60,923 nucleotides of DNA from Anaerolineae bacterium CG2_30_57_67 (GTDB taxonomy: Bacteria; Chloroflexota; Anaerolineae; Anaerolineales; Villigracilaceae), in contig MNXJ01000015.1 of assembly GCA_001872455.1 (NCBI GenBank), positions 1 to 60,923 on the forward strand. The letters run 5' to 3'. The position numbers were made by a program, and so were the translations under genes. Below are positions 3,987-56,299 of the stretch, piece by piece (the stretch's first letter is position 1; every line of letters begins with the position of its first letter). The notes beneath the pieces were generated by a model, which had not been told where the DNA came from, searched no databases, and saw nothing but the letters and a program-made list of their open reading frames with translations.

Positions 3987-4226
3987 TTATCCTGTCTGAC
4001 TATCATCCTGTTTATTCTGTCTGACTATCATCCTATTTATTCCGTTTATCCTGTCTGACCATCATCCTGTTTATTCTGTCTGACTATCATCCTATTTATC
4101 CCGTTTATCCTGTCTGACCATCATCCTGTTTATTCTGTCTGACTATCATCCTGTTTATTCCGTTTATCCTGTCTGACTATCATCCTATTTATCCCGTTTA
4201 TCCTGTCTGACCATCATCCTGTCTGA
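3987..4226. repeat. Tandem repeat array, 59-bp period, running into the mtaB stop codon
   Basis: Copies begin with TTATCCTGTCTGAC at 3987, 4046, 4105 and 4164, then at 4198. The first three spacings are exactly 59 bp; the last unit is shortened to 34 bp and the fifth is partial. Each unit is itself two diverged halves around the core GACTATCATCCT. The array fills the folD-mtaB gap and supplies the last codons and stop of mtaB. A single related GACAGGAT-type stretch lies at 3951-3965 and another near 19398. There are no spacers of constant length and no cas genes, so this is not CRISPR. Confidence 0.9.
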
Positions 4227-5487
4227 TTTCACCGCGCAAAAGCTCGTCTTCCAGCATGATTAACTGCACAGCGTCAATCTGATTCCAGCGCGGCTGCGGC
4301 GCGAAAGCGGCCACACGCAGATAATTGCCGCTCAATCCTTCCATTTGCCAGCCCAACGCGCCGCGCTCGCTGACCGATTCCCATAAGACTGGCAGAGTTT
4401 TGCCAACAAAACCGGCGCGGTAGGCGGCGGCGCTGAGGGCGGTCACTTGCCGCAGTTGCGCGCCGCGCTCTTTTTTCACATCCAGCGGCAAGTGATTTTT
4501 CATGCGCGCGGCGGGCGTGCCGGGGCGCGGCGAGTAGGTGAAAACATGCGCGGCGGCAAACTGCATTTCGGTCACAAACGCCAGCGTTTCGGCAAATTCT
4601 TCGTCGCTTTCGCCGGGGAAACCGGCGATGATGTCGGTGGAAATCGCCACGCCGGGGAGGACCCGCCGCGCCGTTTCGACCAGCCGCCGGAACGACTGCG
4701 GCGTAATCTTGCGCGCCATGCGCTTGAGCGTGGCGGCGCTGCCCGATTGCAGCGGCAGATGCAGGTGCGGCATCAGGCGCGGATTCTGCCAGAGGGCGAA
4801 AAAGCCCTCGTCCAAATCCCAGGGTTCGAGCGAGGAAAGCCGCAGGCGCGGCGTCTCCGTTTTCGTTAAAATTTCGTCAATCAAGTTACGCAAATCTGCG
4901 CCAAAATCCTGCCCCCACGAGCCGAGGTGGACGCCGGTCAGCACCACTTCCTGCGCGCCACCCGCCAGCGCAAAATCAATATCATTTAAAATATCGGCCA
5001 CCGGGCGCGAACGTCCCGCGCCGCGCGCCAGGGTGGTGATGCAAAATGTGCAGGCGTTGTCGCAGCCGTCCTGCACTTTGATGAAGGCGCGCGTGCGGTG
5101 ATGCAGACCGGGCAAAACCTGGCGTTGCAGCGGTTCGCGCTCGAAGGGCGGAATTTCCACGCCCAGCGTTTCGGCCACCAGCCACTCTTTGCGCTGGTTG
5201 GGAATTACGCGGACGACGTTGGGCAAATCGGCGGCGGCCTGCGGCTGAAGGGTGGACCAGCAACCGGTGACGATGATTTCCCCGGCCCCAGCGCGCGCCG
5301 CCCGCCGAATTTTCTGGCGCGAATCGGCGGCGGCTTCGCTGGTGACGGCGCAGGTATTAACCACCACCCAGTCGGCTTCGGCGGGCTGGGCGACAATGTT
5401 GTGCCCTTCGGCGCGGAATTGGCGCGCCATTTGTTCAATTTCCGCCTGATTCAGGCGGCAGCCAATCGTATCGAGGTAAATTTTCAT
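4198..5487 (-). CDS. mtaB: tRNA t6A37 methylthiotransferase MtaB (radical SAM, two Fe-S clusters)
   Basis: MtaB adds a methylthio group to N6-threonylcarbamoyladenosine-37 of tRNA. The N-terminal UPF0004 domain has cluster cysteines C10 (IGCRLNQ), C46 (NTCAVT) and C76 (TGCWS). The radical SAM motif is C142-x3-C146-x2-C149 (CDNACTFC). LHLPLQSGS and TDIIAGFPGE are typical, and a C-terminal TRAM-like part follows. MtaB is favoured over MiaB and RimO by the IGCRLNQ and NTCAVT wording. The start overlaps the stop of the upstream lipoprotein gene by ATGA, so translation is probably coupled. The last residues (QDDGQTG) are encoded by a tandem repeat, so the C-terminus may be a recent extension. Confidence 0.92.
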   Translation of the reverse strand: MKIYLDTIGCRLNQAEIEQMARQFRAEGHNIVAQPAEADWVVVNTCAVTSEAAADSRQKIRRAARAGAGEIIVTGCWSTLQPQAAADLPNVVRVIPNQRKEWLVAETLGVEIPPFEREPLQRQVLPGLHHRTRAFIKVQDGCDNACTFCITTLARGAGRSRPVADILNDIDFALAGGAQEVVLTGVHLGSWGQDFGADLRNLIDEILTKTETPRLRLSSLEPWDLDEGFFALWQNPRLMPHLHLPLQSGSAATLKRMARKITPQSFRRLVETARRVLPGVAISTDIIAGFPGESDEEFAETLAFVTEMQFAAAHVFTYSPRPGTPAARMKNHLPLDVKKERGAQLRQVTALSAAAYRAGFVGKTLPVLWESVSERGALGWQMEGLSGNYLRVAAFAPQPRWNQIDAVQLIMLEDELLRGEIRQDDGQTG

Positions 5488-6125
5488 GGTTTGCGCACAA
5501 TAAAATCGTCAAAAAGCACCGCCGCGCCGGGGGTTTCAAAGGTTCCGGCCAGCAGGCCAACATCGCCGCGCGAAAAATCCGCATCCTGCGCCGAAAGCGC
5601 CAGATGGTCGTTGATGTAGAGAATCAGAAAATCGGAGACGCAGTCGGCGCGCAGGCGGTTGACCTGCCCGCCGGTGAGAATTTCCGGGCGGCGGGTCATC
5701 TCTGAGCCGGTCAGCAGAATCGCCTGCCCGGCAGACATTTTTCCGATGGCGGCGTAGCCATCCGCGCTGATGATGAAAAAATAAAAGTTGGTGTCATCCA
5801 CATAGCGGCAAAGCACGCCCATGCGGTTGGAATACGGTTCGCCCGCGGCGCGCAGACGCGCATCCACGCGCACATCGTCCAGCGCCAGGCCGGGATGCGC
5901 CCAAATCTGGGCGTTGGCGGGCTTGACGTACATGCGAAAAGCGCCTTCCTGATAGGCGGCCACGCCGCCTTCAGCGTTGAGCGTGCCCCAACCGCTCTGC
6001 GGATTGGAAAAATCATCGCTGAAAAGCGTGCTGCCCGAAGCAAAAAAACGCTCGCCAAAGCCGGGCGCGGCGCGGCAGCCCGCAAGCAAGAGCAGCAGGG
6101 TAAGGAGAAGAGGAGAGTGTTTCAT
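5484..6125 (-). CDS. Lipoprotein with a LamG/DUF1080-like beta-sandwich domain
   Basis: The 213-residue product has a lipoprotein signal (MKHSPLLLTLLLLLAGC, lipidated C17). Its body begins LFSDDFSNPQSGW, a signature of concanavalin-like (LamG or 3-keto-disaccharide hydrolase DUF1080) domains common in Chloroflexota lipoproteins, and ends LFDDFIVRKP as these domains do. No enzyme activity is claimed. A TAGAAT hexamer lies 9 nt before the ATG. The 3' end overlaps mtaB by 4 nt, which is an odd pairing of an envelope protein with a tRNA-modifying enzyme. The protein probably sits on the outer face of the cytoplasmic membrane. Confidence 0.75.
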   Translation of the reverse strand: MKHSPLLLTLLLLLAGCRAAPGFGERFFASGSTLFSDDFSNPQSGWGTLNAEGGVAAYQEGAFRMYVKPANAQIWAHPGLALDDVRVDARLRAAGEPYSNRMGVLCRYVDDTNFYFFIISADGYAAIGKMSAGQAILLTGSEMTRRPEILTGGQVNRLRADCVSDFLILYINDHLALSAQDADFSRGDVGLLAGTFETPGAAVLFDDFIVRKP

Positions 6126-6134
6126 TTTTTCTTC

Positions 6135-6140
6135 ATTCTA
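6135..6140 (-). promoter_or_regulatory. -10-like TAGAAT, 9 nt before the lipoprotein ATG
   Basis: On the minus strand TAGAAT is followed by GAAGAAAAA and ATG 6125. The GAAGAA could also serve as a weak ribosome site, so leaderless use is less certain here than elsewhere in the window. Confidence 0.35.
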
Positions 6141-6161
6141 CCGTAACGCGGGCGGGCGCGG

Positions 6162-7523
6162 TTAAGGAAAATAGCGCTCCAGCACGCGCCGCGCCGCGTC
6201 GCCGGTTGCGCCCGCCGGGTCGAGCGCGGCGGCCTGCTCAAAATGTGGACGGGCTTGCGCCAAATCTCCGGCGTTGAAGAACAACAACCCCAAATGAAAC
6301 TGCGGCGCGGCTTCGGCGGGCGCCAGTTCTGCCGCGCGGACGAACATGCGCCGGGCGCTTTCAGCGTTACCCAGCGCCAGCAGAACTCGTCCCAGCGCGT
6401 CAGGATTGCGCCAGTCGTCCGGCGCGAGCGATACCGCTTTCAGCGCGGCGGGCAGACCGCTTTCGCGCAGGTAACTCTCATTTGTGGCGCAAAAAACGGC
6501 CAGCGCGCGCCAGGGTTCGGGGTCTAGCGGGGCAAGCGCAACTGCTATGCGATAATGTTCATACGCCGCAATCAAATCGCCCGACTGAACGTAGGCTTCG
6601 CCCAACGCCAACTGCCAGGTTGGCGACTGCGGCTCCAGCGTGGCGGCGTGCGTAAAAGCCTCCAACGCGCGCGCAGAGTCACCGGCGCGCTGCCAGTACA
6701 GCCCGGCCCGCGCCAGTGTTGCGGCGTTCGTGGGCGCAAGCGTGAGCGCGCGTTGCAGGGCCGGCCAGGCCAAGTCTGAACCATTTTGTTGACGTGCCTC
6801 GCCCAGCCAGGCCCAGGCTTCGGCATAATTAGGGTTGGCTTGTGCGGCGCGGGTAAATGCCCGTTCGGCCAGCGGCCAATTTCCCAGCGCGGCCAGCGCA
6901 CGCCCACAAACCACGCGCTGGTAGGCTATATCATCCACTGCCAGCGCCTCGTTCAAGGCGGCGGCAGCGACGGCGTAACGGGAGTCAGTCTTCGGGTCGA
7001 GGCTGCGCGCGGCATCCAACTCAGGGCGCGCCAACGCCGGGGTCTCGCTCATCCACCACAAGGCCAGCGAAAATCTCAATTCAACATCATTTTGGAAAAG
7101 GTCTACACCGTGAATTAGCGTTCGCTCTACGGCAGAATCCTGTCCGAGGCGTTGATACGCTTCGGACAGGCGGAGAAACAACGCCGCCGAAGCCTGGTCG
7201 CCGTTGGTGAAGGTTTCCCAGGTTTCCAACGCTTGCTGTTGCGCTCCCAATTGCCAATGCGCCTCGCCCAGCACCAGCGCTCCTTGTGTAGAAATTGCCC
7301 CACGCTCGCGGGCAGCCTCCAGAAGGCGCACGGTATCGGGGTAGGCTTGTTTGTCAAAGGCGGCAATAGCGGCCTGCTCCAGCAAATCGGCGCGCCAGGG
7401 CAAAAAACGCGCGGCCTGTTCATATTCTCCAGCGCCCAAAAAATGATAACCCTGTAAGGGGAAAAATGATAAAAGCAGTAGTAAAATTATCGTAAGAACG
7501 GCAGGGCGCGGCAGCTTCTTCAT
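6162..7523 (-). CDS. Membrane-anchored tetratricopeptide-repeat protein
   Basis: Starting at ATG 7523, the 453-residue product has one N-terminal membrane helix (PAVLTIILLLLLSFFPL) and then about ten TPR-type helical repeats to the C-terminus, seen as recurring LGEAHWQLG, LAALGNWPLAERAF, AWAWLGEARQQNG, LALGEAYVQSGD and FHLGLLFFNAGDLAQA. TPRs are protein-interaction scaffolds; no partner can be named. The longer reading frame to 7649 would add 42 residues before the helix and would overlap the divergent promoter, so it is rejected. The gene is divergent from the kinase-like gene at 7594, with a 70-bp shared regulatory region holding a -10 hexamer for each direction. Confidence 0.82.
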   Translation of the reverse strand: MKKLPRPAVLTIILLLLLSFFPLQGYHFLGAGEYEQAARFLPWRADLLEQAAIAAFDKQAYPDTVRLLEAARERGAISTQGALVLGEAHWQLGAQQQALETWETFTNGDQASAALFLRLSEAYQRLGQDSAVERTLIHGVDLFQNDVELRFSLALWWMSETPALARPELDAARSLDPKTDSRYAVAAAALNEALAVDDIAYQRVVCGRALAALGNWPLAERAFTRAAQANPNYAEAWAWLGEARQQNGSDLAWPALQRALTLAPTNAATLARAGLYWQRAGDSARALEAFTHAATLEPQSPTWQLALGEAYVQSGDLIAAYEHYRIAVALAPLDPEPWRALAVFCATNESYLRESGLPAALKAVSLAPDDWRNPDALGRVLLALGNAESARRMFVRAAELAPAEAAPQFHLGLLFFNAGDLAQARPHFEQAAALDPAGATGDAARRVLERYFP

Positions 7524-7532
7524 TTTATGGAC

Positions 7533-7538
7533 ATTATA
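7533..7538 (-). promoter_or_regulatory. -10 hexamer TATAAT of the TPR gene, 9 nt before ATG
   Basis: On the minus strand TATAAT is followed by 9 nt and ATG 7523. No Shine-Dalgarno sequence is seen. This matches the leaderless layout of other unit-leading genes here. Confidence 0.45.
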
Positions 7539-7579
7539 AGTCGTTACGCAATCGAAATTATCATAAAAACAAGCCGTGC

Positions 7580-7585
7580 TATAAT
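7580..7585 (+). promoter_or_regulatory. -10 hexamer TATAAT of the kinase-like gene, 8 nt before ATG
   Basis: TATAAT, then CCGAGGCG, then three consecutive ATG codons at 7594, 7597 and 7600. A GAGG within the 8 nt could act as a ribosome site for the third ATG if the transcript began early enough; otherwise the mRNA is leaderless. Confidence 0.45.
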
Positions 7586-7593
7586 CCGAGGCG

Positions 7594-9972
7594 ATGATGA
7601 TGCCGTTTATGCAACAGATTTTTACCCTTTTAGCCAACGCTCCAGGCAACCTGATTTATCACCTGGCGCTGGCTTTTTCGATTGCTGGTGCGCTTCAGGA
7701 AGCCATCGGCCAGTGGCGCGCCACCGGTTACCCGCAAACGCGCCGCATGATTACTGGTTTGAGCCTTGTTTTAACGGGCCAGGCCGTTTTATTTATTGCC
7801 AGCGGGCTGGTGTGGCAGGGCGTTTTCTCTGCGCAGGGATTTTTGCCCCCACTTGACCGCGCGGTGATGGTTTTCAGCCTGACTTGGGCGTTGTGGATGT
7901 GGACTTTTCCTGAACCGTCCCGCGCGGGCGATGCTGGAACTGTGCTGTTTAGTCTGCTGACGTTGGCCGGCTTTATTTTTGGCGTCATTGTGCAAAGCGC
8001 CGCATCTGAAAGCGCTTTTAATCAGACCATCCAGCACGTCGTGTGGAACGTTGTCTTGCTGGTAGTTTTGGCAATTGGCGGATTGACCTTGCTGACGCGC
8101 AAACCAATCGGTTGGGGCAATGGGCTGGCGTTGACGGTGTTGGCTATCACCGGTGTCGCGCTGGATTTTCTCGCGCCCGCCGCTGGCAGTTACTCTGGTG
8201 TGGAAAGATTATTTTTTATGGCGGGCTTTCCGTTGTTGCTGACGTTACCGGCGCGTTTTCCCAGCCCGGGCGTGGGTGCGGCCAACGAAACCGTCAGTCG
8301 TTTTCAGAAAAATGTGGCTGAATCGGCCAAGGCAGACCGTCTCAGCCAACCCTTGCGTGAGCGTCGTCGTTACAGCACCGACCCCAAAACGCTGACATCT
8401 CTGATTGCGCTGGCGTCCGAAGTGGATGCCGGGCGCATCAATCAAAACATTGCCCGATCAATGGCGCAAGCCCTGCTGGCCGATTTGTGCTTTGTCATTT
8501 ACCTGAGTGAAGATAAAAGCACGCTCTTCATTGCCAGCGGCTACGATCTGATTCGAGAAGAATTTTTGGAAGGCGGCCTGATGAATAAGGACGCCGTCCC
8601 GATGCTGGCTGGAGCGATTCTGCGTGGACGCGCCTTGCGCCTGCCCGCCAGCACCACCTCGTCCGACCTGAAAGGTTTGGGCGAGATGTTGGGGCTTTCC
8701 AACCCTGGCAATCTGCTCAACGTCCCCATCGCTGGCGAAAAGGGACACATTGGCAGTGTGCTTTTGCTCTCACCCTACTCCAACCGTCTGTGGAACGCCG
8801 ACGATCAGACCTTCCTGACGGGTGTGGCGGCCTCGTTTGTGCCAATTATTGAGCGCAGCCGCCACATGGCCGAAGTGGAACACGAGCGCGACCGCGCCTT
8901 GCAAAGTGCGCAGGAGGCGCAATCGGTTAAAGAGCGTCTGGAGTCAATTAATTCCAACTTGAACAATGAGTTGGACGCCCTCAAAAGCCAGGCTGCCCAG
9001 GCCGGGCAATCCGAATCAGCGCGCCAGGAAGCCCTGAGAGAAATTGAAAAAGTGCGCGTCGAGAACGAGAAACTCAAATCGCGTCTGGAAAGCGCCAAAG
9101 CGTCTGCCGGCCAGTCGCCCGCTGGAAGCAATGAATATTTCGAAAGCGAGTTACGTCTGACGCTGGAAGAAACTGCCCGCCTGCAAAATGCTTTGGCGGA
9201 TGCCAATATCAAAATTCTGGAAATGGAAAAACGCCCCGCCGGGCGGCTCAGCCCCGACCAGGCCGAGGTGATTGCCTCAATTGCCCAGGAACTGCGTCAG
9301 CCCATGTCTTCCATCCTTGGCTATACAGATTTGATGTTGGGCGAATCGGTGGGCATTTTGGGCGCACTTCAACGCAAGTTTGTGGAGCGCATAAAATCGT
9401 CCACCGAACGGGTGGGCAGCCTGATTGACGACCTGATTCAGATTACCACGCTTGAAACCGGCCTGATGGCGCTCAAGCCCGAAACGGTAGATTTGAACCT
9501 GATCATTGACAATGCCATGGCGTATACATCCAGCCAACTGCGCGAGAAAAACATCAGCCTGCGCATTGACCTGCCCGAGACCCTCCACTCTGTGCAGTCT
9601 GACCGCGACGCGCTTCAGCAAATTCTTATTCACCTGTTGCAAAACGCTGGAGCAGCCTCGCCGGTGGAAGGCACCGTGACGTTGCGCGTAGGAATAGATA
9701 AAGAAAACGAAAAGGATTACGTTTTGCTGCAAGTGACCGATAGCGGTGGCGGCATTCCTGCAGAAGATCTGACACGCGTTTTTTCGCGTTTATACCGTGC
9801 TGAGAATGCTCTCATTCAGGGCGTTGGTGATACCGGCGTCGGGCTTTCCATTGCCAAAACGCTGACAGAAGCGCAGGGCGGGCGTATTTGGGTGGATACC
9901 AAAATTGGCGCCGGCTCCACTTTTTCGGTGTTGCTTCCGGTGCGGCAACCTGCGCCTGAGCCGGAGGCCTGA
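7594..9972 (+). CDS. 7TM-GAF histidine-kinase-like protein lacking the phospho-acceptor histidine
   Basis: The 792-residue protein has about seven membrane helices (residues 15-225), a GAF-like domain (about 265-420), a coiled coil (425-545), a dimerisation/H-box region and an HATPase_c domain. The H-box reads IAQELRQPMSS, where family members read x-SHELRTPL: the phospho-acceptor position is Gln565 (CAG codon). The ATP-binding part looks intact, with an N-box LLQNAG, DSGGGI and GDTGVGLSIAK. The protein therefore probably binds ATP but cannot autophosphorylate in the normal way; it could be an allosteric partner of another kinase. A canonical relative with the histidine lies at 54092-56299. 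The next gene, a LysM protein, starts 5 nt downstream, which suggests a cell-wall-related signal. Start may be 7594, 7597 or 7600. Confidence 0.85.
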   Translation: MMMPFMQQIFTLLANAPGNLIYHLALAFSIAGALQEAIGQWRATGYPQTRRMITGLSLVLTGQAVLFIASGLVWQGVFSAQGFLPPLDRAVMVFSLTWALWMWTFPEPSRAGDAGTVLFSLLTLAGFIFGVIVQSAASESAFNQTIQHVVWNVVLLVVLAIGGLTLLTRKPIGWGNGLALTVLAITGVALDFLAPAAGSYSGVERLFFMAGFPLLLTLPARFPSPGVGAANETVSRFQKNVAESAKADRLSQPLRERRRYSTDPKTLTSLIALASEVDAGRINQNIARSMAQALLADLCFVIYLSEDKSTLFIASGYDLIREEFLEGGLMNKDAVPMLAGAILRGRALRLPASTTSSDLKGLGEMLGLSNPGNLLNVPIAGEKGHIGSVLLLSPYSNRLWNADDQTFLTGVAASFVPIIERSRHMAEVEHERDRALQSAQEAQSVKERLESINSNLNNELDALKSQAAQAGQSESARQEALREIEKVRVENEKLKSRLESAKASAGQSPAGSNEYFESELRLTLEETARLQNALADANIKILEMEKRPAGRLSPDQAEVIASIAQELRQPMSSILGYTDLMLGESVGILGALQRKFVERIKSSTERVGSLIDDLIQITTLETGLMALKPETVDLNLIIDNAMAYTSSQLREKNISLRIDLPETLHSVQSDRDALQQILIHLLQNAGAASPVEGTVTLRVGIDKENEKDYVLLQVTDSGGGIPAEDLTRVFSRLYRAENALIQGVGDTGVGLSIAKTLTEAQGGRIWVDTKIGAGSTFSVLLPVRQPAPEPEA

Positions 9973-9977
9973 TTTTT

Positions 9978-10802
9978 ATGCAATCGCTGCGGCAACTGGG
10001 CAACGGTTTTTTCCTCGGTATTCTTTCTATCGTGTTGGTGCTGGGGGCATTTGCCCTGGCGCTGGCTGAGGGCGGGCTGGTGATTTTACCTGCGCCCAGC
10101 CCGACTCTCAGCCCGGCCTTTCCTACGCTGTTTCCGACGCTGCCCCTGCTTGTCACTCAGCCTGGACAAGACATCCCGACCATTGAACCTACCCTGACGC
10201 CTACGCCGCCACCGCCGCCTACTGCTTGCCCCCCTCCGGCAGGCTGGCAGCCTGTGGTAGTGCAACCCTACGACACACTTGAGTCGCTGGCGGCGCTCTA
10301 CCGCCTTCCGGCGGCGCAACTGCAGCAGGCTAATTGTCTGGTCAGCGCTCAGGTGTCGGCGGGGTCGTATATTTACGTTCCGTTTCAGGCTACCAGCACA
10401 CCGATTCCATGCGGTGCGCCATTTGGCTGGGGCGTTTACATCATTCAACCGGGCGACACGCTTTATCGCATCAGCATTCTATACCGGGTGGGTATCGCTG
10501 AATTACAACAGGCCAACTGCCTGGGATATTCCACCTACATTATCACCGGCCAGCCTTTGCGCGTGCCGAATGTACCAACCAGCACTGCCACCTTCACGAT
10601 TGTTGTTCCCGCCAGCGCCACTCCAACAGAAACAATCACCACTACGCCGCTTGCCAGCCCGACAGATACTCTGCTTCCTAGTGACACGCCATCTGCGCTT
10701 CCACTTCCCAGCGACACACCGTCTGCGCTTCCACTTCCCAGCGACACACCGTCTGCGCTTCCACTTCCCAGCGACACACCGTTGCCTACGTCCACGCCGT
10801 AA
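9978..10802 (+). CDS. Membrane-anchored protein with two LysM domains and Thr/Pro-rich linkers
   Basis: The 274-residue product has a membrane helix at about residues 9-31, a Pro/Thr linker, a LysM-like domain (VVVQPYDTLESLAALYRLP and following), a second clearer LysM (YIIQPGDTLYRISILYRVG) and a Ser/Thr/Pro tail. LysM domains bind N-acetylglucosamine polymers such as peptidoglycan. Each LysM is followed by QQANCL, a cysteine shared by both and typical of related Chloroflexota proteins. The tail contains a decapeptide repeat encoded by a 30-bp DNA repeat. GGAGG lies about 10 nt before the ATG, and the kinase-like gene ends 5 nt upstream, so the two form an operon. Confidence 0.88.
   Translation: MQSLRQLGNGFFLGILSIVLVLGAFALALAEGGLVILPAPSPTLSPAFPTLFPTLPLLVTQPGQDIPTIEPTLTPTPPPPPTACPPPAGWQPVVVQPYDTLESLAALYRLPAAQLQQANCLVSAQVSAGSYIYVPFQATSTPIPCGAPFGWGVYIIQPGDTLYRISILYRVGIAELQQANCLGYSTYIITGQPLRVPNVPTSTATFTIVVPASATPTETITTTPLASPTDTLLPSDTPSALPLPSDTPSALPLPSDTPSALPLPSDTPLPTSTP
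10681..10782 (+). repeat. In-frame 30-bp tandem repeat coding SDTPSALPLP
   Basis: Units start at 10681, 10711 and 10741, with a 12-nt partial copy at 10771. The second and third are identical over 30 bp and the first differs at three positions. Near identity at DNA level suggests recent slippage expansion of the wall-spanning linker, which could vary in length between strains. Confidence 0.9.
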
Positions 10803-10855
10803 GCGTTTTGAAAACGCCATGCGCAGGGTTTACCCTGCTTTTTTACACCTTTGGC

Positions 10856-12265
10856 ATGTTTAAATGTTTTCGGCTGTTGCTGCTATTTTTTTTGCTGACG
10901 AGTTGCGCCCCGGTTGCGCCGCCTGTGGCTTATGCGCCCTATTACATTGTCACTGCCGCGCCAGATGCCAGCGCCACGCCAACGCCTTTTCAGCCGCTCT
11001 CACCAGGTATTTCGTCGCCGATACCTGTCTTTACTGCCACGCTGACGCCTGTCCCCTTCAGCGCCACACCGGCGCCGAGCCCAACACCCGAAGCAACTCA
11101 GTTTGCTACGCTACCACCGCCCCCGACTCTGGAAAATGCAGCAGTAATCTCCATTCTCCTGCTTGGCTCTGATTTGCGCTCCGGCGCTTCTTTTCGCACT
11201 GATACCATCGTTGTTGCGTTGGTGCGGCCAAACGAAGGCCAGGTTTCGCTCATCTCCATTCCGCGTGACCTGTGGGTGGAAATTCCCGGCATCGGCCCGC
11301 AGCGCATCAACACCGCCTACCAGTCTGGCGAAATTTACGGTTACCCTGGTGGCGGGCCGGGTTTGTTGAAAGATACACTCCTCAACAATCTAGGAATTCA
11401 AATTGATCATACCGCACTGGTAGATTTTGACGGTTTTAGAAAAATTATCAATACGCTGGGGGGTGTGGATGTGCCGATAGCCTGTCCCTACACCGATTGG
11501 CATCTCATTGCCCCGGATTTGAACGCGGAAGATGAAAATAATTGGGCGCTTTATACCGCCGGGCCGGGTGTGCTGCACATGGATGGCGACTTGACGCTGT
11601 GGTATGCGCGCTCGCGTAAAAAATCCAACGATTTTGACCGTGGACGTCGTCAGCAGGAAGTTTTGCGCTCACTCTACGGACAATTTTTGCGTACCCAAAG
11701 CCTGCCGCGCCTGCCACAACTCTACGCCGATTTGAACGCCAGCGTGCGCACCGATTTTGGCTTGGACGATATCCTGGCGTTTGCGCCGCTGACGCTGAAT
11801 CTGACCAACGCCGACATCCGCAGTTACTACATTGCCGGAGAGATGGTTACCCCGTGGACAACACCCGGCGGCGCTGCTGTCTTGCTGCCTAACCCCGAAG
11901 CCATTCAGGCCATGCTGGCGCAAGCCATCTCGCCTTCGCCTTTGCAAACGGAACGGCAAATGCTAAAGGTGGAGATTCAAAATGGGTCAGCCAATGACGG
12001 TTGGGACGCGCTGGCCGCTGAACGATTGAACTATGCCGGGTATGCAACTTCGCTTTTTCATGCCGACCACCGTCAGCACAACGTAACCCTGCTCTATGAC
12101 CTGACGGCTGACCAGGATGCGCTTCGCGCCGCCAGTCTGCTGGCCGTACTGGGGCTAGAACCTGCCGCGCTGGTAAAAGTGCCTGGAGATGGGACGCTTT
12201 CGTATGTGCTGCTACTGGGCAATGATTATCAACCCTGTTTTATACCGCAAAACCTGACGTCATAG
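10856..12265 (+). CDS. LytR-CpsA-Psr (LCP) family lipoprotein with C-terminal LytR_C domain
   Basis: LCP proteins transfer undecaprenyl-linked glycopolymers onto the cell wall. From ATG 10856 the product has 469 residues with a lipobox LLTSC (C17), a Pro/Thr linker to about residue 90 and the LCP core: ILLLGSDLRSGASFRTDTIVV, VSLISIPRDLWVEIPG, RINTAYQ and DGDLTLWYARSRKKSNDFDRGRRQQ written here as separate motifs. These contain the Arg/Asp set that binds the pyrophosphate lipid. A LytR_C-like domain follows (VEIQNGSANDGWDALAAERL). A TTG 48 nt upstream is a possible but unlikely start because it would bury the lipobox. It lies 53 nt after the LysM gene, same strand. Confidence 0.9.
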   Translation: MFKCFRLLLLFFLLTSCAPVAPPVAYAPYYIVTAAPDASATPTPFQPLSPGISSPIPVFTATLTPVPFSATPAPSPTPEATQFATLPPPPTLENAAVISILLLGSDLRSGASFRTDTIVVALVRPNEGQVSLISIPRDLWVEIPGIGPQRINTAYQSGEIYGYPGGGPGLLKDTLLNNLGIQIDHTALVDFDGFRKIINTLGGVDVPIACPYTDWHLIAPDLNAEDENNWALYTAGPGVLHMDGDLTLWYARSRKKSNDFDRGRRQQEVLRSLYGQFLRTQSLPRLPQLYADLNASVRTDFGLDDILAFAPLTLNLTNADIRSYYIAGEMVTPWTTPGGAAVLLPNPEAIQAMLAQAISPSPLQTERQMLKVEIQNGSANDGWDALAAERLNYAGYATSLFHADHRQHNVTLLYDLTADQDALRAASLLAVLGLEPAALVKVPGDGTLSYVLLLGNDYQPCFIPQNLTS

Positions 12266-16690: not shown

Positions 16691-17779
16691 ATGAAACTTG
16701 AAAAAATCACCCTCTATCCGCTGAAGATGCCGCTGGTTTCGCACTTTGAAACCTCCTTTGGCCGAATTGTTGAGCGTGAATGCGTGCTGGTCAAAATCCA
16801 ATCCGAAGGGCTGACGGGTTGGGGCGAATGCGTCGCCGACCGCGACCCCGGCTATTCTTACGAAACAACCGGCACAGTTTTGCACATTCTGCGCGATTTT
16901 CTCCTGCCAATGCTGGCCGGCCAGGAGGTGGCCGACGCCGCCGACTTTCAACGGCGCGTCGCCAGCGTGCGCGGACATCACCTGGCAAAGGCCGGGCTGG
17001 AAATGGCGATTTGGGATTTGCTCGGCAAGCGTCAGGGCAAAAGCCTGCGCCAACTTTTCGGCGGCGCGCGCGAGGCGGTCGAAGTGGGCGTTTCGGTTGG
17101 CATTCAAGCATCGCCCGAGGCGCTGGTGCGCGTCGTGGAACAGTACATCGCCGACGGCTACCGGCGCGTCAAAATCAAAATCAAACCGGGGCGCGATGTG
17201 AGCGAAGCGGCGGCGGTGCGCCGCGCTTTCCCGGCGATGCGCCTGCAGGTGGACGCCAACTCGGCCTACACCCTGGCGACCGCCTCCGCGCTGAAACCGC
17301 TCGACGAACTCAACCTGCTGCTGATTGAGCAGCCGCTCTATGAAGACGACATTTGGGACCACCGTCTGATGCAGCGCGAATTCAAAACCCCGCTCTGCCT
17401 CGACGAAAGCATCGTCAGTCCGCGACATGCGCGTTACGCGCTGGAAATGGAAGCCTGCCGCGTCATCAACATCAAACCGGCGCGCTGCGGCGGGCTGAGC
17501 CAGGGGCTGGAAATTCACGAAATGTGCCAAAAAGCCGGCATTCCCGTCTGGTGCGGCGGAATGCTGGAAACCAACATTGGCCGCGCCACCAACCTGGCGC
17601 TGGCCTCACTGCCCGGCTTCAGCCTGCCCGGCGATATTTCCGCTTCGGCGCGCTATTACCAGCAAGATGTGACGCTCGAATCGTTCACGCTCAACGCCGA
17701 CAGCACCATCAACGTGCCGACTGCGCCCGGTATTGGCGTCACAGTGGATGAAAATGCCGTCAAAAAATTTACGTTCTAA
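16691..17779 (+). CDS. Enolase-superfamily enzyme, o-succinylbenzoate synthase / N-acylamino acid racemase type
   Basis: The 362-residue protein belongs to the MenC/NAAAR branch. Catalytic residues visible are the KxK pair at K163/K165 (KIKIKPG), metal ligands D188 (QVDAN), E213 (IEQP) and D238 (CLDES), and K262 (INIKPARCGG). MenC converts SHCHC to o-succinylbenzoate in menaquinone synthesis; NAAAR members racemise N-acyl or N-succinyl amino acids. No other men genes are in the window, so the substrate is left open. The start at 16691 follows AAGGAAG; an upstream ATG at 16661 adds ten residues without support. The 3' end overlaps the CapA gene. Confidence 0.9.
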   Translation: MKLEKITLYPLKMPLVSHFETSFGRIVERECVLVKIQSEGLTGWGECVADRDPGYSYETTGTVLHILRDFLLPMLAGQEVADAADFQRRVASVRGHHLAKAGLEMAIWDLLGKRQGKSLRQLFGGAREAVEVGVSVGIQASPEALVRVVEQYIADGYRRVKIKIKPGRDVSEAAAVRRAFPAMRLQVDANSAYTLATASALKPLDELNLLLIEQPLYEDDIWDHRLMQREFKTPLCLDESIVSPRHARYALEMEACRVINIKPARCGGLSQGLEIHEMCQKAGIPVWCGGMLETNIGRATNLALASLPGFSLPGDISASARYYQQDVTLESFTLNADSTINVPTAPGIGVTVDENAVKKFTF

Positions 17780-19376
17780 CCCCAAAAAACGGCTCTTGGC
17801 CGCCTGGCTGGCGGCCATTTTCTTGGTTTCGGCCTGCGCTCCGGCGCTGATTTCTCCGCCGCCGCCCAGCCTCACGCCCGCGCCGACGGTGACGCCCGCG
17901 CCGAGCGCCTTGCCCCGCCTGTGGATTGCGCCCTCCGTGCCCGAAACTTTGCAGCAGGCGGCCGCCCTGGCCGGGCTGGAGCGTGTTTCCCGCGCCGAAC
18001 AGGCCAGCCTGCGCCTGGAACCTGCCAGCGCCGAAAATTCATCCGGCGCGCTGTGGATTTATGCAGATGTGGCCGCGTTCCCCACCGTCGAAGACGGCCT
18101 AAGCCTGGAGCAGGTGAAAAGCGCTTTTCATGGCGCTGCGCCGCGCCTGCTGTTAACCGCCTCCACGCTCGAGGCCATGAAAAACCTGTTTGGCGGCGAG
18201 CCAGGTTCCGGCGTCGAAATTGTCGCCGCTGAAGGGCTGACCGAGGCCCTTTGGCAGGATTCCGCCGCGCGGGCGATTGTGCCTTTCGAGCAGATTTCGC
18301 CGAAAATGAAAGTGCTCAGCGTGGCGAATCAGTCGCCGCTGTGGAAGTCGTTTGACGCGCAGACGTACCCGCTGAAAGTTGTTTTCGCCGCCGGAAGTTT
18401 GCCCCTGCCGAAAACCAATCGCGACCCCGCCAAACTGACGACGCTGGTGATGACCGGCGTCACCGCCCTGGTGCGGGCGACCGCCGCGAAAATGGAGACA
18501 AAAGGTCTGACCTACCCGGGCGAAGGCGTGCGCGACTGGCTGCGCGAAGCGGATATTGCCCATATTTCCAACGAAATTCCTTTTGCCGAAAACTGCCCGC
18601 CGCCCAACCCCAATCAGACGGCGCTCATTTTTTGCTCGGCCCCCAAATACATTGCGCTGTTGGACGATGTCGGCGTGGACGTGGTCGAGCTGACCGGCAA
18701 TCATTTTGAAGACTGGGGCCGCGAAGCCACGCTGCACACGCTGGAAATGTATCGCGCGCGCAATTTGCCTTATTTTGGCGGCGGCTTTGACCTGGCCGAC
18801 TCGCAAAAAGCGGCGCTGCTCGAGCGTAACGGCGTTAAATTTGCCTTCATTGGCTGCAACCCCGTCGGGCCGGAATTCGCCTGGGCGCGCGCCGATGGCT
18901 GGCCGGGCGCCGCGCCCTGCGGCGATTATGGCTGGATGGTGGACGAAATCAAACGCCTGAAAGCCGAAGGCTATCTGGTGATTGCCACGTTTCAATATTT
19001 TGAATATTACACGCCCGAGCCGCGCCCCTGGCAACTGACCGATTTCCGCCGCCTGGCGGATGCCGGGGCGACCATTGTCAGCGGTTCGCAGGGCCATTAC
19101 GCCCAGGCGATGGAGTTTTACGGCGCTTCGTTTGTGCATTATGGCCTGGGAAATTTATTTTTTGACCAGATGGGCTACACCTACCCCACCAACGGCCAGC
19201 GCACGACCAATACGCGGCGCGAGTTTTTGGACCGGCATGTTTTTTACGACGGTCAGTATATCGGCACCGAGTTATTGACCGCCATGCTGGAAGATTACGC
19301 CCGTCCGCGCCCGATGACCCCTGAAGAGCGCACGGCCTTTTTGGAAGAATATTTCGCCGCCAGCGGCTGGCGCTGA
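17748..19376 (+). CDS. CapA-family lipoprotein (PGA_cap, metallophosphatase-like fold)
   Basis: The product has a lipoprotein signal ending LVSAC (C30 from ATG 17748), a Pro/Thr linker, a region of about 200 residues without a recognised domain, and a C-terminal CapA domain: VVELTGNHFEDWG, PYFGGGFDLADS, FAFIGCNP, QGHYAQAMEF and GLGNLFFDQM. These are the NH-x-D and GxGN-type motifs of the calcineurin-like CapA fold, linked to poly-gamma-glutamate or other capsule/wall polymer handling. The middle region has VMTGVTALVRAT, which corresponds to the domain's first strand with the usual D partly altered. It starts inside the preceding gene (overlap 32 nt); ATG 17754 is an equal alternative. Confidence 0.83.
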   Translation: MKMPSKNLRSNPKKRLLAAWLAAIFLVSACAPALISPPPPSLTPAPTVTPAPSALPRLWIAPSVPETLQQAAALAGLERVSRAEQASLRLEPASAENSSGALWIYADVAAFPTVEDGLSLEQVKSAFHGAAPRLLLTASTLEAMKNLFGGEPGSGVEIVAAEGLTEALWQDSAARAIVPFEQISPKMKVLSVANQSPLWKSFDAQTYPLKVVFAAGSLPLPKTNRDPAKLTTLVMTGVTALVRATAAKMETKGLTYPGEGVRDWLREADIAHISNEIPFAENCPPPNPNQTALIFCSAPKYIALLDDVGVDVVELTGNHFEDWGREATLHTLEMYRARNLPYFGGGFDLADSQKAALLERNGVKFAFIGCNPVGPEFAWARADGWPGAAPCGDYGWMVDEIKRLKAEGYLVIATFQYFEYYTPEPRPWQLTDFRRLADAGATIVSGSQGHYAQAMEFYGASFVHYGLGNLFFDQMGYTYPTNGQRTTNTRREFLDRHVFYDGQYIGTELLTAMLEDYARPRPMTPEERTAFLEEYFAASGWR

Positions 19377-54091: not shown

Positions 54092-56299
54092 ATGGACGTA
54101 TTTCTCCCTTATCTTATCAAAATTTTACCCATTTTGGGCCTGTTTATTTTGCTTTTGCTGACGTTGCGCCGGGGACGCGCACAGGGGCAGATGATTGGGC
54201 TGTTGGTGGCCTATCTGGTTGCCGCGCTGGCAATTCAGGCGGTGGGCGTCATTGGCGGCCTGGGCTGGTGGCCGGTTGCGCTGGACGCGCAAACCCAGGC
54301 GCAGTTGGATACGATGGGGGCGTTGCTTTCGACGTTACTGCTTTTTCATTTTTGTCTGATGGTGAGTCTCCCAAATGCCAGCCCGCTGTGGGTTCTGCTT
54401 TCACTGGCATGGGCGTTGGCGCTTTCCCTTTTGCAAAATGTACTTTTTCTGTTTGGCTCGTGGTTGTTTTTTAGCATAGGCGCGTTTTTCTTGCTTGCTC
54501 GTGGGGCGTGGAAGGTGAAACAGCCCATGCAGCGCAACCTGCTATCCTATTTTTACCCCATTTTGACGCTGGCTTTGCTTAATGACGGCCTGATGTTTTA
54601 TGCGATTGGTGGCCGCGAAAATATTTTGCGTTTGGGCGCGGCAGCGCTGTTGACCTATGTCGTCTTGAAAACTCATCTGCCCGACACGCGTGACCTGACC
54701 CGGCAGTTTCTGACGTATTTGACGACATCGGTCCTGACGATGTTGGTTTATCTGGCGGGAACGTATGCGGCGCAGGTGGTTTTTGGCGCGATGAGTGGTT
54801 TTAATCCTCTGTTTGCGGGCGCGGTAGTCGCTGTTATTATCTCTATTGTTTTTTCGCCCATGCTCAACGCAGTGCGGAGTGGGGTAAATCGTCTCTTCCG
54901 CATCGAAACCTACGACGCGGCGCAAACCCTGCGTGAGTACTCCACCAGCATCAGCCACATTCTTGACCTGGATAAATTGGCGACGGTGGCAGTTGGCATC
55001 ATCATGGAAGCGCTGGAAGTCAGGAAGGGCTTTCTTTTTATTGTAGACCCAGAGCTGAACGATGCAGGCCATAAAATTTACCGGCTAACCGGCGTTCGCG
55101 GTGCGGGCAACCAGCAAAAGATAACCGGCGTTTTAGCGGGTGATAGCCAAATTGCCCGTTTTTTTGTGGAAGAGCATGATGTCTTGCTTCAATATGATCT
55201 CGATTTTGCGCAGAATTTTCTCGATGCGCCCATCAGCGAGCGCCGCTGGCTGGGTTCGCTGGGGTTGGATGTGTATGTGCCGATTCATTCCAAGGGTGAA
55301 TGGATTGGCTTGCTGGCGCTTGGCCCAACCGGTTCTGGCCGACGTTATACTGACGAAGATTTGGATTTGCTGCTGGCAATTGCCAGCCAGACTGGCGTGG
55401 CGCTCGAAAATGCCCGCCTGGTGGAAAATCTCAAGAAACTCAATACGCAAATCCGCGAAGCCTACGCATATCTGGATAAAGCCAACCACGATCTGGCAAC
55501 CCTGGAGTTGACCAAGTCCAACTTCATCAGCATCGCCTCGCACGAGTTGCGCACCCCGTTGACCGTGGCGCGTGGCTACACTGAAATGTTGCTGGAAAAT
55601 GACAGCCTGGACGATGCGATTCGCGGTGTGGTCAAAGGCATCCATAAATCCATTTTGCGCTTGCACGAAATTATGGATTCGATGTTTGATATTGCTCAAC
55701 TCGATGCGCGCACGATGGAATTACACCGCCAGGAAGTTTTTGTCACCGACCTATTGCGCTCGGTTGCTCAGGAACTTTCTGGCGCGGCGGCAGAGCGTCA
55801 TCAGGAATTCTCGCTGGATATCCCGCAATTGTTTTCCATCAAGGCCGACCCAAACGCTTTGCGCAAGTTGTTTTACCATCTGATGATTAACGCCATTAAA
55901 TTCACGCCTGATAACGGTAAAGTTACCGTCACCGGGCGACAAATTTCAGCCAACAACCGTGACCTGCCTGAAGGCGGTGTCGAGATTATTGTCAGCGATA
56001 CTGGCGTGGGCGTAGACAAAGCCTTTCAGGAAATCATCTTTACCAAGTTTTACCAGCCTGGTGAACTGCTTAATCGTCATTCCACCGGCAAGACGAAATT
56101 CAAAGGGTCGGGCGTGGGGTTGGGGTTGGCGCTTTCGCGCGGAATTGTGGATGCGCACGGGGGAAAAATTTGGGTGGAAAGTGAAGGCTACGACGAAGAG
56201 AAATTCCCTGGCAGCGATTTTCACATCATCTTACCGACGCGCTCTCAGGGCGAGAGTAAAACAGTGCGCATGGCGAGCGCCATGAAAGTCAAATTGTAA
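54092..56299 (+). CDS. 7TM-GAF sensor histidine kinase
   Basis: The 735-residue protein has about eight membrane helices (residues 5-260), a GAF domain (about 285-445), a short coiled coil and a HisKA/HATPase_c pair. The phospho-acceptor is H484 in SIASHELRTPL. The ATP lid region reads DTGVGVD, KFKGSGVGLGLALSRGI and GGKIWVESEG. All kinase residues look intact. There is no response regulator next to it. It is the canonical counterpart of the kinase-like protein at 7594, with the same domain order, and could be its phosphorylation partner. It diverges from the GH13 gene. Confidence 0.93.
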   Translation: MDVFLPYLIKILPILGLFILLLLTLRRGRAQGQMIGLLVAYLVAALAIQAVGVIGGLGWWPVALDAQTQAQLDTMGALLSTLLLFHFCLMVSLPNASPLWVLLSLAWALALSLLQNVLFLFGSWLFFSIGAFFLLARGAWKVKQPMQRNLLSYFYPILTLALLNDGLMFYAIGGRENILRLGAAALLTYVVLKTHLPDTRDLTRQFLTYLTTSVLTMLVYLAGTYAAQVVFGAMSGFNPLFAGAVVAVIISIVFSPMLNAVRSGVNRLFRIETYDAAQTLREYSTSISHILDLDKLATVAVGIIMEALEVRKGFLFIVDPELNDAGHKIYRLTGVRGAGNQQKITGVLAGDSQIARFFVEEHDVLLQYDLDFAQNFLDAPISERRWLGSLGLDVYVPIHSKGEWIGLLALGPTGSGRRYTDEDLDLLLAIASQTGVALENARLVENLKKLNTQIREAYAYLDKANHDLATLELTKSNFISIASHELRTPLTVARGYTEMLLENDSLDDAIRGVVKGIHKSILRLHEIMDSMFDIAQLDARTMELHRQEVFVTDLLRSVAQELSGAAAERHQEFSLDIPQLFSIKADPNALRKLFYHLMINAIKFTPDNGKVTVTGRQISANNRDLPEGGVEIIVSDTGVGVDKAFQEIIFTKFYQPGELLNRHSTGKTKFKGSGVGLGLALSRGIVDAHGGKIWVESEGYDEEKFPGSDFHIILPTRSQGESKTVRMASAMKVKL

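Follow-up and report, generated by a model that had tools for sequence, protein, structure and literature searches.

A LysM-linked histidine-kinase-like protein with glutamine at the phospho-acceptor position, conserved in one class of Chloroflexota

Histidine kinases (HKs) generally dock their receiver domains through the alpha1-alpha2 face, and the lysine of the N box is important in these proteins. Three described systems serve here for comparison: RcsD is an HK-like membrane protein without an acceptor histidine, which acts on envelope stress and carries an Hpt domain; NarX H399Q is a kinase-dead HK mutant that retains phosphatase activity; and LytS-type 7TM histidine kinases are composed of the domains 5TM-5TMR_LYT and His_kinase. 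A well-studied natural case of an HK without its histidine is DivL. According to the available excerpts of PMC4211667, DivL carries Tyr for His, keeps the HK boxes, has neither kinase nor phosphatase activity and binds DivK~P, while its binding of an ATP analogue is weak. Mutants of CrdS separate the two activities: in the excerpted text of PMC3510030, the exchange N375Q leaves no measurable phosphatase activity, and the acid at position H+1 (E372) is needed for the kinase and not for the phosphatase. How frequent such proteins are can be judged from a survey of 2025, which in the part available (PMC12632262) gives 722 of 76,471 HisKA domains, i.e., 0.9%, as missing the acceptor His.

Here, we describe a further protein of this kind, encoded in a window of 60,923 nucleotides of contig MNXJ01000015.1 from Anaerolineae bacterium CG2_30_57_67. 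The open reading frame at 7594-9972 on the plus strand encodes 792 amino acids plus stop, and we name its product pseudo-histidine-kinase (PHK). No paper on this protein family was found in the literature searched, with most subscription journals outside the scope of the search. LysM is discussed for another Chloroflexota protein, PilO, in PMC13319060, and the term histidine kinase is absent from the excerpted text of that paper. The features of the locus are as follows.

7594..9972, plus strand: PHK gene (open reading frame, Pfam)
7594..8268, plus strand: N-terminal membrane region, approximately residues 1-225, with seven predicted helices (AlphaFold helices 18-44, 47-74, 80-104, 110-136, 146-169, 174-193, 202-221; block pLDDT 64-84)
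8440..8838, plus strand: GAF-like region, residues 283-415 (GAF_2, E 0.0015, below the curated cut-off)
8866..9243, plus strand: helical linker, residues 425-550 (model helices 402-504, 513-545)
9259..9462, plus strand: HisKA (DHp) domain, residues 556-623 (Pfam)
9286..9288, plus strand: codon CAG of Gln565, the phospho-acceptor position (alignment, codon reading)
9298..9300, plus strand: codon of Gln569 at H+4, the phosphatase Thr/Asn position (alignments of 71 and 122 rows)
9310..9408, plus strand: residues 573-605, the end of alpha1, the loop and the start of alpha2, unusually conserved (mean pairwise identity 0.91 versus 0.70 in a control HK)
9601..9945, plus strand: HATPase_c (CA) domain, residues 670-784 (Pfam)
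9643..9645, plus strand: N-box Asn684, invariant (122/122)
9739..9741, plus strand: G1-box Asp716, invariant (122/122)
9978..10802, plus strand: LysM protein of 274 aa with an N-terminal hydrophobic segment and two LysM stretches (Pfam), starting 5 nt after the PHK stop
10808..12265, plus strand: LytR-CpsA-Psr (LCP) family protein (Pfam, 9.7e-33)

A preliminary description of the sequence had proposed a 7TM-GAF-kinase plan, and this holds in part. The kinase half is firm, as HisKA (2e-13) and HATPase_c (1.2e-22) both exceed their curated Pfam cut-offs. Seven helices of at least 20 residues lie within the N-terminal 221 residues of an AlphaFold model, in agreement with seven transmembrane helices, while a plain hydropathy scan at 1.6 returns just four segments; the GAF_2 match stays under its cut-off, with 19.1 versus 28.6 bits. 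The N-terminal region as such is shared: at E 1e-3, phmmer detects it in 80 ORFs of the family out of 100. Neither an Hpt nor a PAS domain was found among the Pfam matches. The model is poor (mean pLDDT 59, pTM 0.33, built on an alignment of 8), and a Foldseek search with it leads to chains of HK853, DivL and RetS with TM-scores (normalised to the query) near 0.2 and so gives no information beyond that of the sequence match.

The replacement of the acceptor is clear. In two phmmer alignments to HK853-type chains, the stretch aqelrqp is placed opposite SHELRTP or SHELRAP, so that Gln565 (codon CAG, H-box QELRQP) stands opposite the His of solved kinases, as had been noticed from the sequence alone. 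A functional HisKA kinase has its acceptor His in the H box, and PHK has Gln565 there; no further His occurs within residues 555-605. The ATP site had been described as intact, which is correct for the G1 (DSGGGI) and G2 (GDTGVGL) boxes, found together with the F box, and incorrect for the N box. The latter reads IHLLQNAGAAS: its second Asn (684) is kept, the first is replaced by His680, and Lys-Tyr by Ala687-Ala688. At H+4, Gln569 takes the place of Thr or Asn. Within its own genome, PHK stands alone in this respect. Among 38 HK-like loci, 35 have an alignable acceptor, which is His in 34 cases and Gln in PHK; three could not be aligned.

Near relatives of PHK in named records, from Chloroflexi bacterium HGW-Chloroflexi-6 and from Anaerolineales and Anaerolineae assemblies, show 53-71% identity (7 loci). 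The gene is present in 34 out of 37 genomes of the window's taxonomic family, its own included (E 1e-130 or better; absent from G025, G029 and G035), and in 19 of 24 other genomes of the order (4e-68 or better; G040, G045, G050, G053 and G058 are without it). A profile of the C-terminal part of PHK has hits at 1e-70 or better in 153 of the 396 class genomes; these matches were read in part, and some of the weaker ones near 1e-70 are second, unrelated HKs. The best match outside the class, in a search of 301 genomes of the phylum, reaches 8e-71, and all H-boxes read there (L165-L169, L202-L209) carry His. Among the genomes read, the protein family is thus restricted to the window's class. Two irregularities were observed: in G009 and G043 (L071, L072) the gene is split into two overlapping or adjacent frames, by a frameshift or an assembly error, and of the ten genomes listed for family f13, eight show no match at 1e-70 (G302, G312, G322, G375, G389, G410, G415, G442), so that loss of the gene in part of this family is possible.

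For the residue statistics, 160 distinct C-terminal regions were aligned and ranked by profile score, and the family was taken to be the 122 rows that score higher than L165, the first one not from the class, a split which the tree supports. The acceptor is Q in 100 of these sequences, N in 10, H in 6, S in 4, and R and E in one each, i.e., it is not His in 116 of 122. At the same time, the N-box Asn, the G1 Asp, the G1 Gly and the F-box Phe are invariant in 122/122 rows. The first set of 71 relatives, in which order and class are mixed, gives the same picture, with Asn684, Asp716, Gly720, Phe730 and Gly745 kept in 71/71. The acceptor loss is therefore not a matter of general decay. The N-box Lys, on the other hand, is retained in just 16/122 rows. 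Gln is encoded by CAG in 72 cases and by CAA in 28; since both codons are used, synonymous change has continued while the residue stayed Gln. The suggestion that the protein is a pseudokinase is thus borne out at the level of sequence: HisKA and HATPase_c are recognisable, and the loss of the acceptor His is conserved in orthologues. Close orthologues with His, which would have pointed to a private mutation, were not seen, as all rows of the order that were read have Q except one with S (L160). Private mutation and sequencing error are ruled out by the presence of the gene in nearly all genomes of the taxonomic family, with Q at the acceptor in the rows read from it.

A quick tree of 108 rows, calculated with the acceptor column excluded, places 76 family rows on one side of a branch and 32 canonical HKs on the other (SH-aLRT 99). 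His-bearing members are nested within the family, namely L046 and L089 (f24), L174 and L176 (f67), and L182 and L184 (f21). On this tree, parsimony counts 12 changes if the family root had Q and 13 if it had H; if His is never regained, 16 changes are needed, with at least 11 separate losses. The four His rows of f24 and f67 have an altered N-box (NACQCS or NACRCS) and the G2 form GETGVG in common with their Q/N relatives, and the two His rows of f21 retain the N-box Lys. Six His rows from three families also have a LysM gene downstream (L088, L174, L176, L182, L184, L089), and phosphorylation may matter in the six His-bearing rows. As a separate observation, L197, L198, L199 and L200 are second copies within the PHK clade which have no LysM neighbour, and two of them show odd H-boxes, QRLRTP (L197) and RDLQTP (L200).

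The gene context is conserved as well, and it supports the earlier claim that PHK is coupled to a two-LysM protein. Among distinct loci with at least 900 nt downstream, 78 of 91 from the family have a LysM gene as the next gene in the same orientation, versus none of 13 from non-family HKs. Position limits apply to both this count and that for LCP, and membership in the family is defined by a profile-score limit of 250. The value of 78 is a lower bound, as the LysM matches of L089 and L098 fall outside the limits, and 13 of the 91 loci have no LysM gene inside them. None of the 13 control loci is from the class, and five (L165-L169) are nearly identical to one another. The two genes are tightly spaced: in 83 family loci with a LysM gene, the median distance from PHK to the first possible LysM start is 0 nt, and 79 of them stay within 60 nt. 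The C-terminal tail of the LysM protein in the window (10671-10799) is a short tandem repeat of LPSDTPSALP units.

An LCP gene lies downstream in all 23 loci of the window's order with at least 3 kb of downstream sequence, 20 of which also have the LysM gene. Outside the order, it was found in 5 out of 33 family loci (L101, L179, L185, L187, L194), and among non-family HK loci with 3 kb downstream in one of seven (L208). By hand count this amounts to 28 of 56 family loci; the match of L092 (E 2e-5) is spurious, being the LysM ORF itself. The LCP ORF of the window opens at TTG 10808; translation from a second, in-frame start codon, ATG 10856, would begin with a lipoprotein-like signal containing LTSC. 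Judged from the sequence, this ATG may be the true start and the listed one too early.

Further genes were noted around the locus. Divergent and upstream of PHK, positions 4198-7649 encode a TPR protein, a 213-aa protein without Pfam match and an MtaB-like radical SAM protein, and the order of these neighbours beside PHK is kept in several genomes of the window's taxonomic family. A PGA_cap (capsule synthesis) protein is encoded at 17733-19376, about 8 kb downstream. The flanks of L091 carry glycan genes, i.e., an O-antigen ligase Wzy_C and a GDP-mannose dehydratase. Pfam scans covered 10 ORFs from four class loci, the upstream HK included, as well as 10 further ORFs of the window, a small part of the flanking ORFs; no response regulator or receiver was found among them.

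Conservation within the kinase module was compared with that of a canonical HK orthogroup from the same 20 genomes, in which HELRTP is found in 20/20. The mean pairwise identity of residues 573-605 is higher in PHK than in the control (see the feature lines), the reverse is true of the helix before the H-box (0.72 versus 0.99), and the ATP-binding boxes are conserved to a similar degree in both. On these alignments, the constraint has shifted away from the phosphorylation helix and towards the part which in known HKs docks the receiver.

Putting these facts together, we hold it to be somewhat more probable than a mere even chance that the membrane-bound PHK is an old and widely kept envelope-signalling part of the class, which has kept the HK dimer domain and the ATP/Mg site, has no autophosphorylation at the H-box, senses the envelope together with the LysM protein and signals by a docking similar to that of DivL. 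In short, PHK probably senses the envelope and signals through binding partners rather than through self-phosphorylation. The input would come via the membrane and GAF-like part and the co-translated LysM protein. The ATP/Mg site would be in use, because its residues are invariant. Self-phosphorylation at the H-box is predicted to be absent since, by established chemistry, Gln cannot carry a phosphoryl group as His does and so cannot replace it as phospho-acceptor. The output may consist of a nucleotide- and conformation-dependent contact, made by the highly conserved alpha1-loop-alpha2 face, to either a true kinase or a protein with a receiver domain; docking as in DivL is suggested because residues 573-605 are the most constrained part of the module relative to the control. 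Two observations count against this reading. The conservation of the ATP site exceeds what the analogy with DivL needs, given the weak nucleotide binding described in the excerpts on the latter. In addition, 121/122 rows keep an acid at H+1, for which docking alone gives no reason; this residue may have a structural function, or be a sign of catalysis in trans within a heterodimer.

A heterodimer is the subject of the first alternative, in which PHK pairs with a genuine HK and either phosphorylates the partner His in trans or sets the activity of the partner allosterically. We judge it unlikely as a general account, and it stays alive in f24, f67 and f64, since His-bearing HKs are encoded directly upstream there. 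A canonical HK with SHELRTPL lies immediately upstream on the same strand in L088, L089 and L091 (f24) and in L176 (f67), and these upstream HKs of f24 and f67 form a clade of their own (L088, L091_2 and L176_2 in the tree, support 100); the one of L088 has GAF and PAS domains. In L104 (f64), a His-bearing HK of a different kind takes the same place and strand. Besides these neighbours, the invariant ATP site is in favour of such a subunit. Elsewhere, an adjoining HK was found neither in the loci of the order examined for gene order nor in the f24 loci L092, L093 and L094, and catalysis in trans is made less likely by the N-box Lys, which most rows have lost. The partner originally proposed, the kinase at 54092 of the window, receives no support. 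It ranks 27th of 38 matches to PHK in its own genome, self included, falls on the canonical-HK side of the tree, and matches residues 509-784 only, at 27%, with no credible N-terminal alignment. Precedents point both ways, as the excerpts of PMC9491836 report heterodimers of native ChrS with HrrS, seen by two-hybrid testing, and no significant heterodimerisation of a truncated pseudokinase.

Slightly further down the scale, and in our view improbable, is a phosphatase-only sensor, which would have no kinase role, dephosphorylate a response regulator with ATP as cofactor, and tolerate Q, N or S at the acceptor. The HisKA phosphatase motif is E/D-x-x-T/N with Thr or Asn at H+4; it is absent from PHK of the window and present in many class-level relatives. 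In the first set of 71 rows (order and class mixed), H+4 is Q in 51 and T in 20, and among the 122 family rows it is Q in 64, T in 56, and R and N in one each. All 56 rows with Thr lie outside the window's order, and the order itself has Gln, apart from one row with R. Thr at H+4 thus speaks for this alternative outside the order, and so does the invariant ATP site, while Gln speaks against it within. Since the equivalent exchange N375Q abolished the activity in CrdS (excerpted text of PMC3510030), classical HisKA phosphatase activity is probably absent in the PHKs of the order. The class-level relatives with Thr may keep it. Also in favour, the conserved His is reported in the excerpts of PMC12632262 as inessential for HisKA phosphatase, and the CrdS exchange H371A reduced the activity and did not abolish it (PMC3510030, in part). 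However, the same excerpts of PMC12632262, a 2025 perspective, oppose phosphatase activity as the general role of pseudo-HKs, the H+1 acid is conserved in the family though dispensable for the CrdS phosphatase (PMC3510030, in part), and a receiver gene was not found among the flanking ORFs scanned.

Very improbable is an active kinase with another phospho-acceptor. The acid at H+1 (E in 112, D in 9 and R in one of the 122 family rows) and the ATP-binding boxes, whose conservation is close to that of the control HK, would fit it, but the chemistry of Gln, the lack of another His near the H-box of PHK and the missing N-box Lys in most rows do not. A neutral remnant, i.e., a kinase gene in the course of losing its function, can practically be dismissed: the second copies without LysM neighbour, two of them with more degenerate H-boxes, would agree with it, whereas the LysM-linked copies contradict it by their conservation: most relatives have an intact ORF, the ATP residues do not vary, the gene order is kept, the gene occurs almost throughout the taxonomic family, and the stretch at 573-605 is more conserved than in the control HK.

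Beyond the preferred reading of PHK as an envelope sensor that signals by docking, a wider proposal may be made for the class as a whole, which we put forward tentatively and with more doubt than confidence. An HK-shaped, ATP-binding, phosphorylation-free sensor would be a core envelope regulator of the class, working as a co-translated pair with the LysM protein. The acceptor would have been toggled between Q, N, S, E, R and, in three families, His, while the gene pair was kept, leaving pseudokinases beside possibly resurrected kinases.

Among known systems, canonical HisKA kinases (HK853, WalK and the PhoR/PnpS types) are the best matches of PHK, both among solved chains and among NCBIfam models. 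They share its domain order and its F, G1, G2 and G3 boxes; PHK differs by the lack of the acceptor His and of the N-box Lys-Tyr and by Gln at H+4. For the 25 NCBIfam families listed of 85 matched, all scores stay below the cut-offs, the best being 161 versus 400. PHK does not fall among the LytS-type kinases, as 5TM-5TMR_LYT and His_kinase are absent among the Pfam matches of PHK, which has HisKA instead. With RcsD it has in common that it is a membrane-bound, HK-like protein without acceptor His, and it differs by the Hpt domain, which was not found. The kinase-dead, phosphatase-positive mutants of CrdS (E372 and, partly, H371A, in the excerpted text of PMC3510030) resemble PHK in having lost a kinase residue and kept the fold, and E-x-x-T is also kept in many class-level relatives; PHK is, however, a natural protein, and the Gln at H+4 of the order corresponds to the inactive N375Q.

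A close likeness is that to DivL of Caulobacter and other alphaproteobacteria. Both proteins have the DHp-CA fold and the other HK boxes, both have an acceptor that is replaced and conserved as such, and PHK is predicted to share the lack of kinase and phosphatase activity; the DivL chain PDB 4q20 is matched by the PHK sequence, and by Foldseek with the poor model. The differences lie in Gln instead of Tyr, in a membrane and GAF-like instead of a PAS input, in the LysM/LCP context and in the occurrence in Chloroflexota. Evidence for DivK- or CckA-like partners of PHK was not found. As DivL is defined by Tyr or Ala at the acceptor and by PAS input, and PHK has Gln565 and no PAS among its Pfam matches, the best reading by analogy is that PHK works like DivL without the defining features of DivL. 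Pseudo-HKs are an already recognised kind of protein, and what is new here is best called a class-wide pseudo-HK in an envelope gene cluster. Next to DivL, it represents another family, which occurs widely within one class and in association with a single gene context. Its natural Q, N, S and His variants, together with the two main states of the phosphatase position, make the use of the HK fold without phosphorylation testable by comparison, and the protein also hints at a cell-envelope sensor among bacteria of whose envelope little is known.
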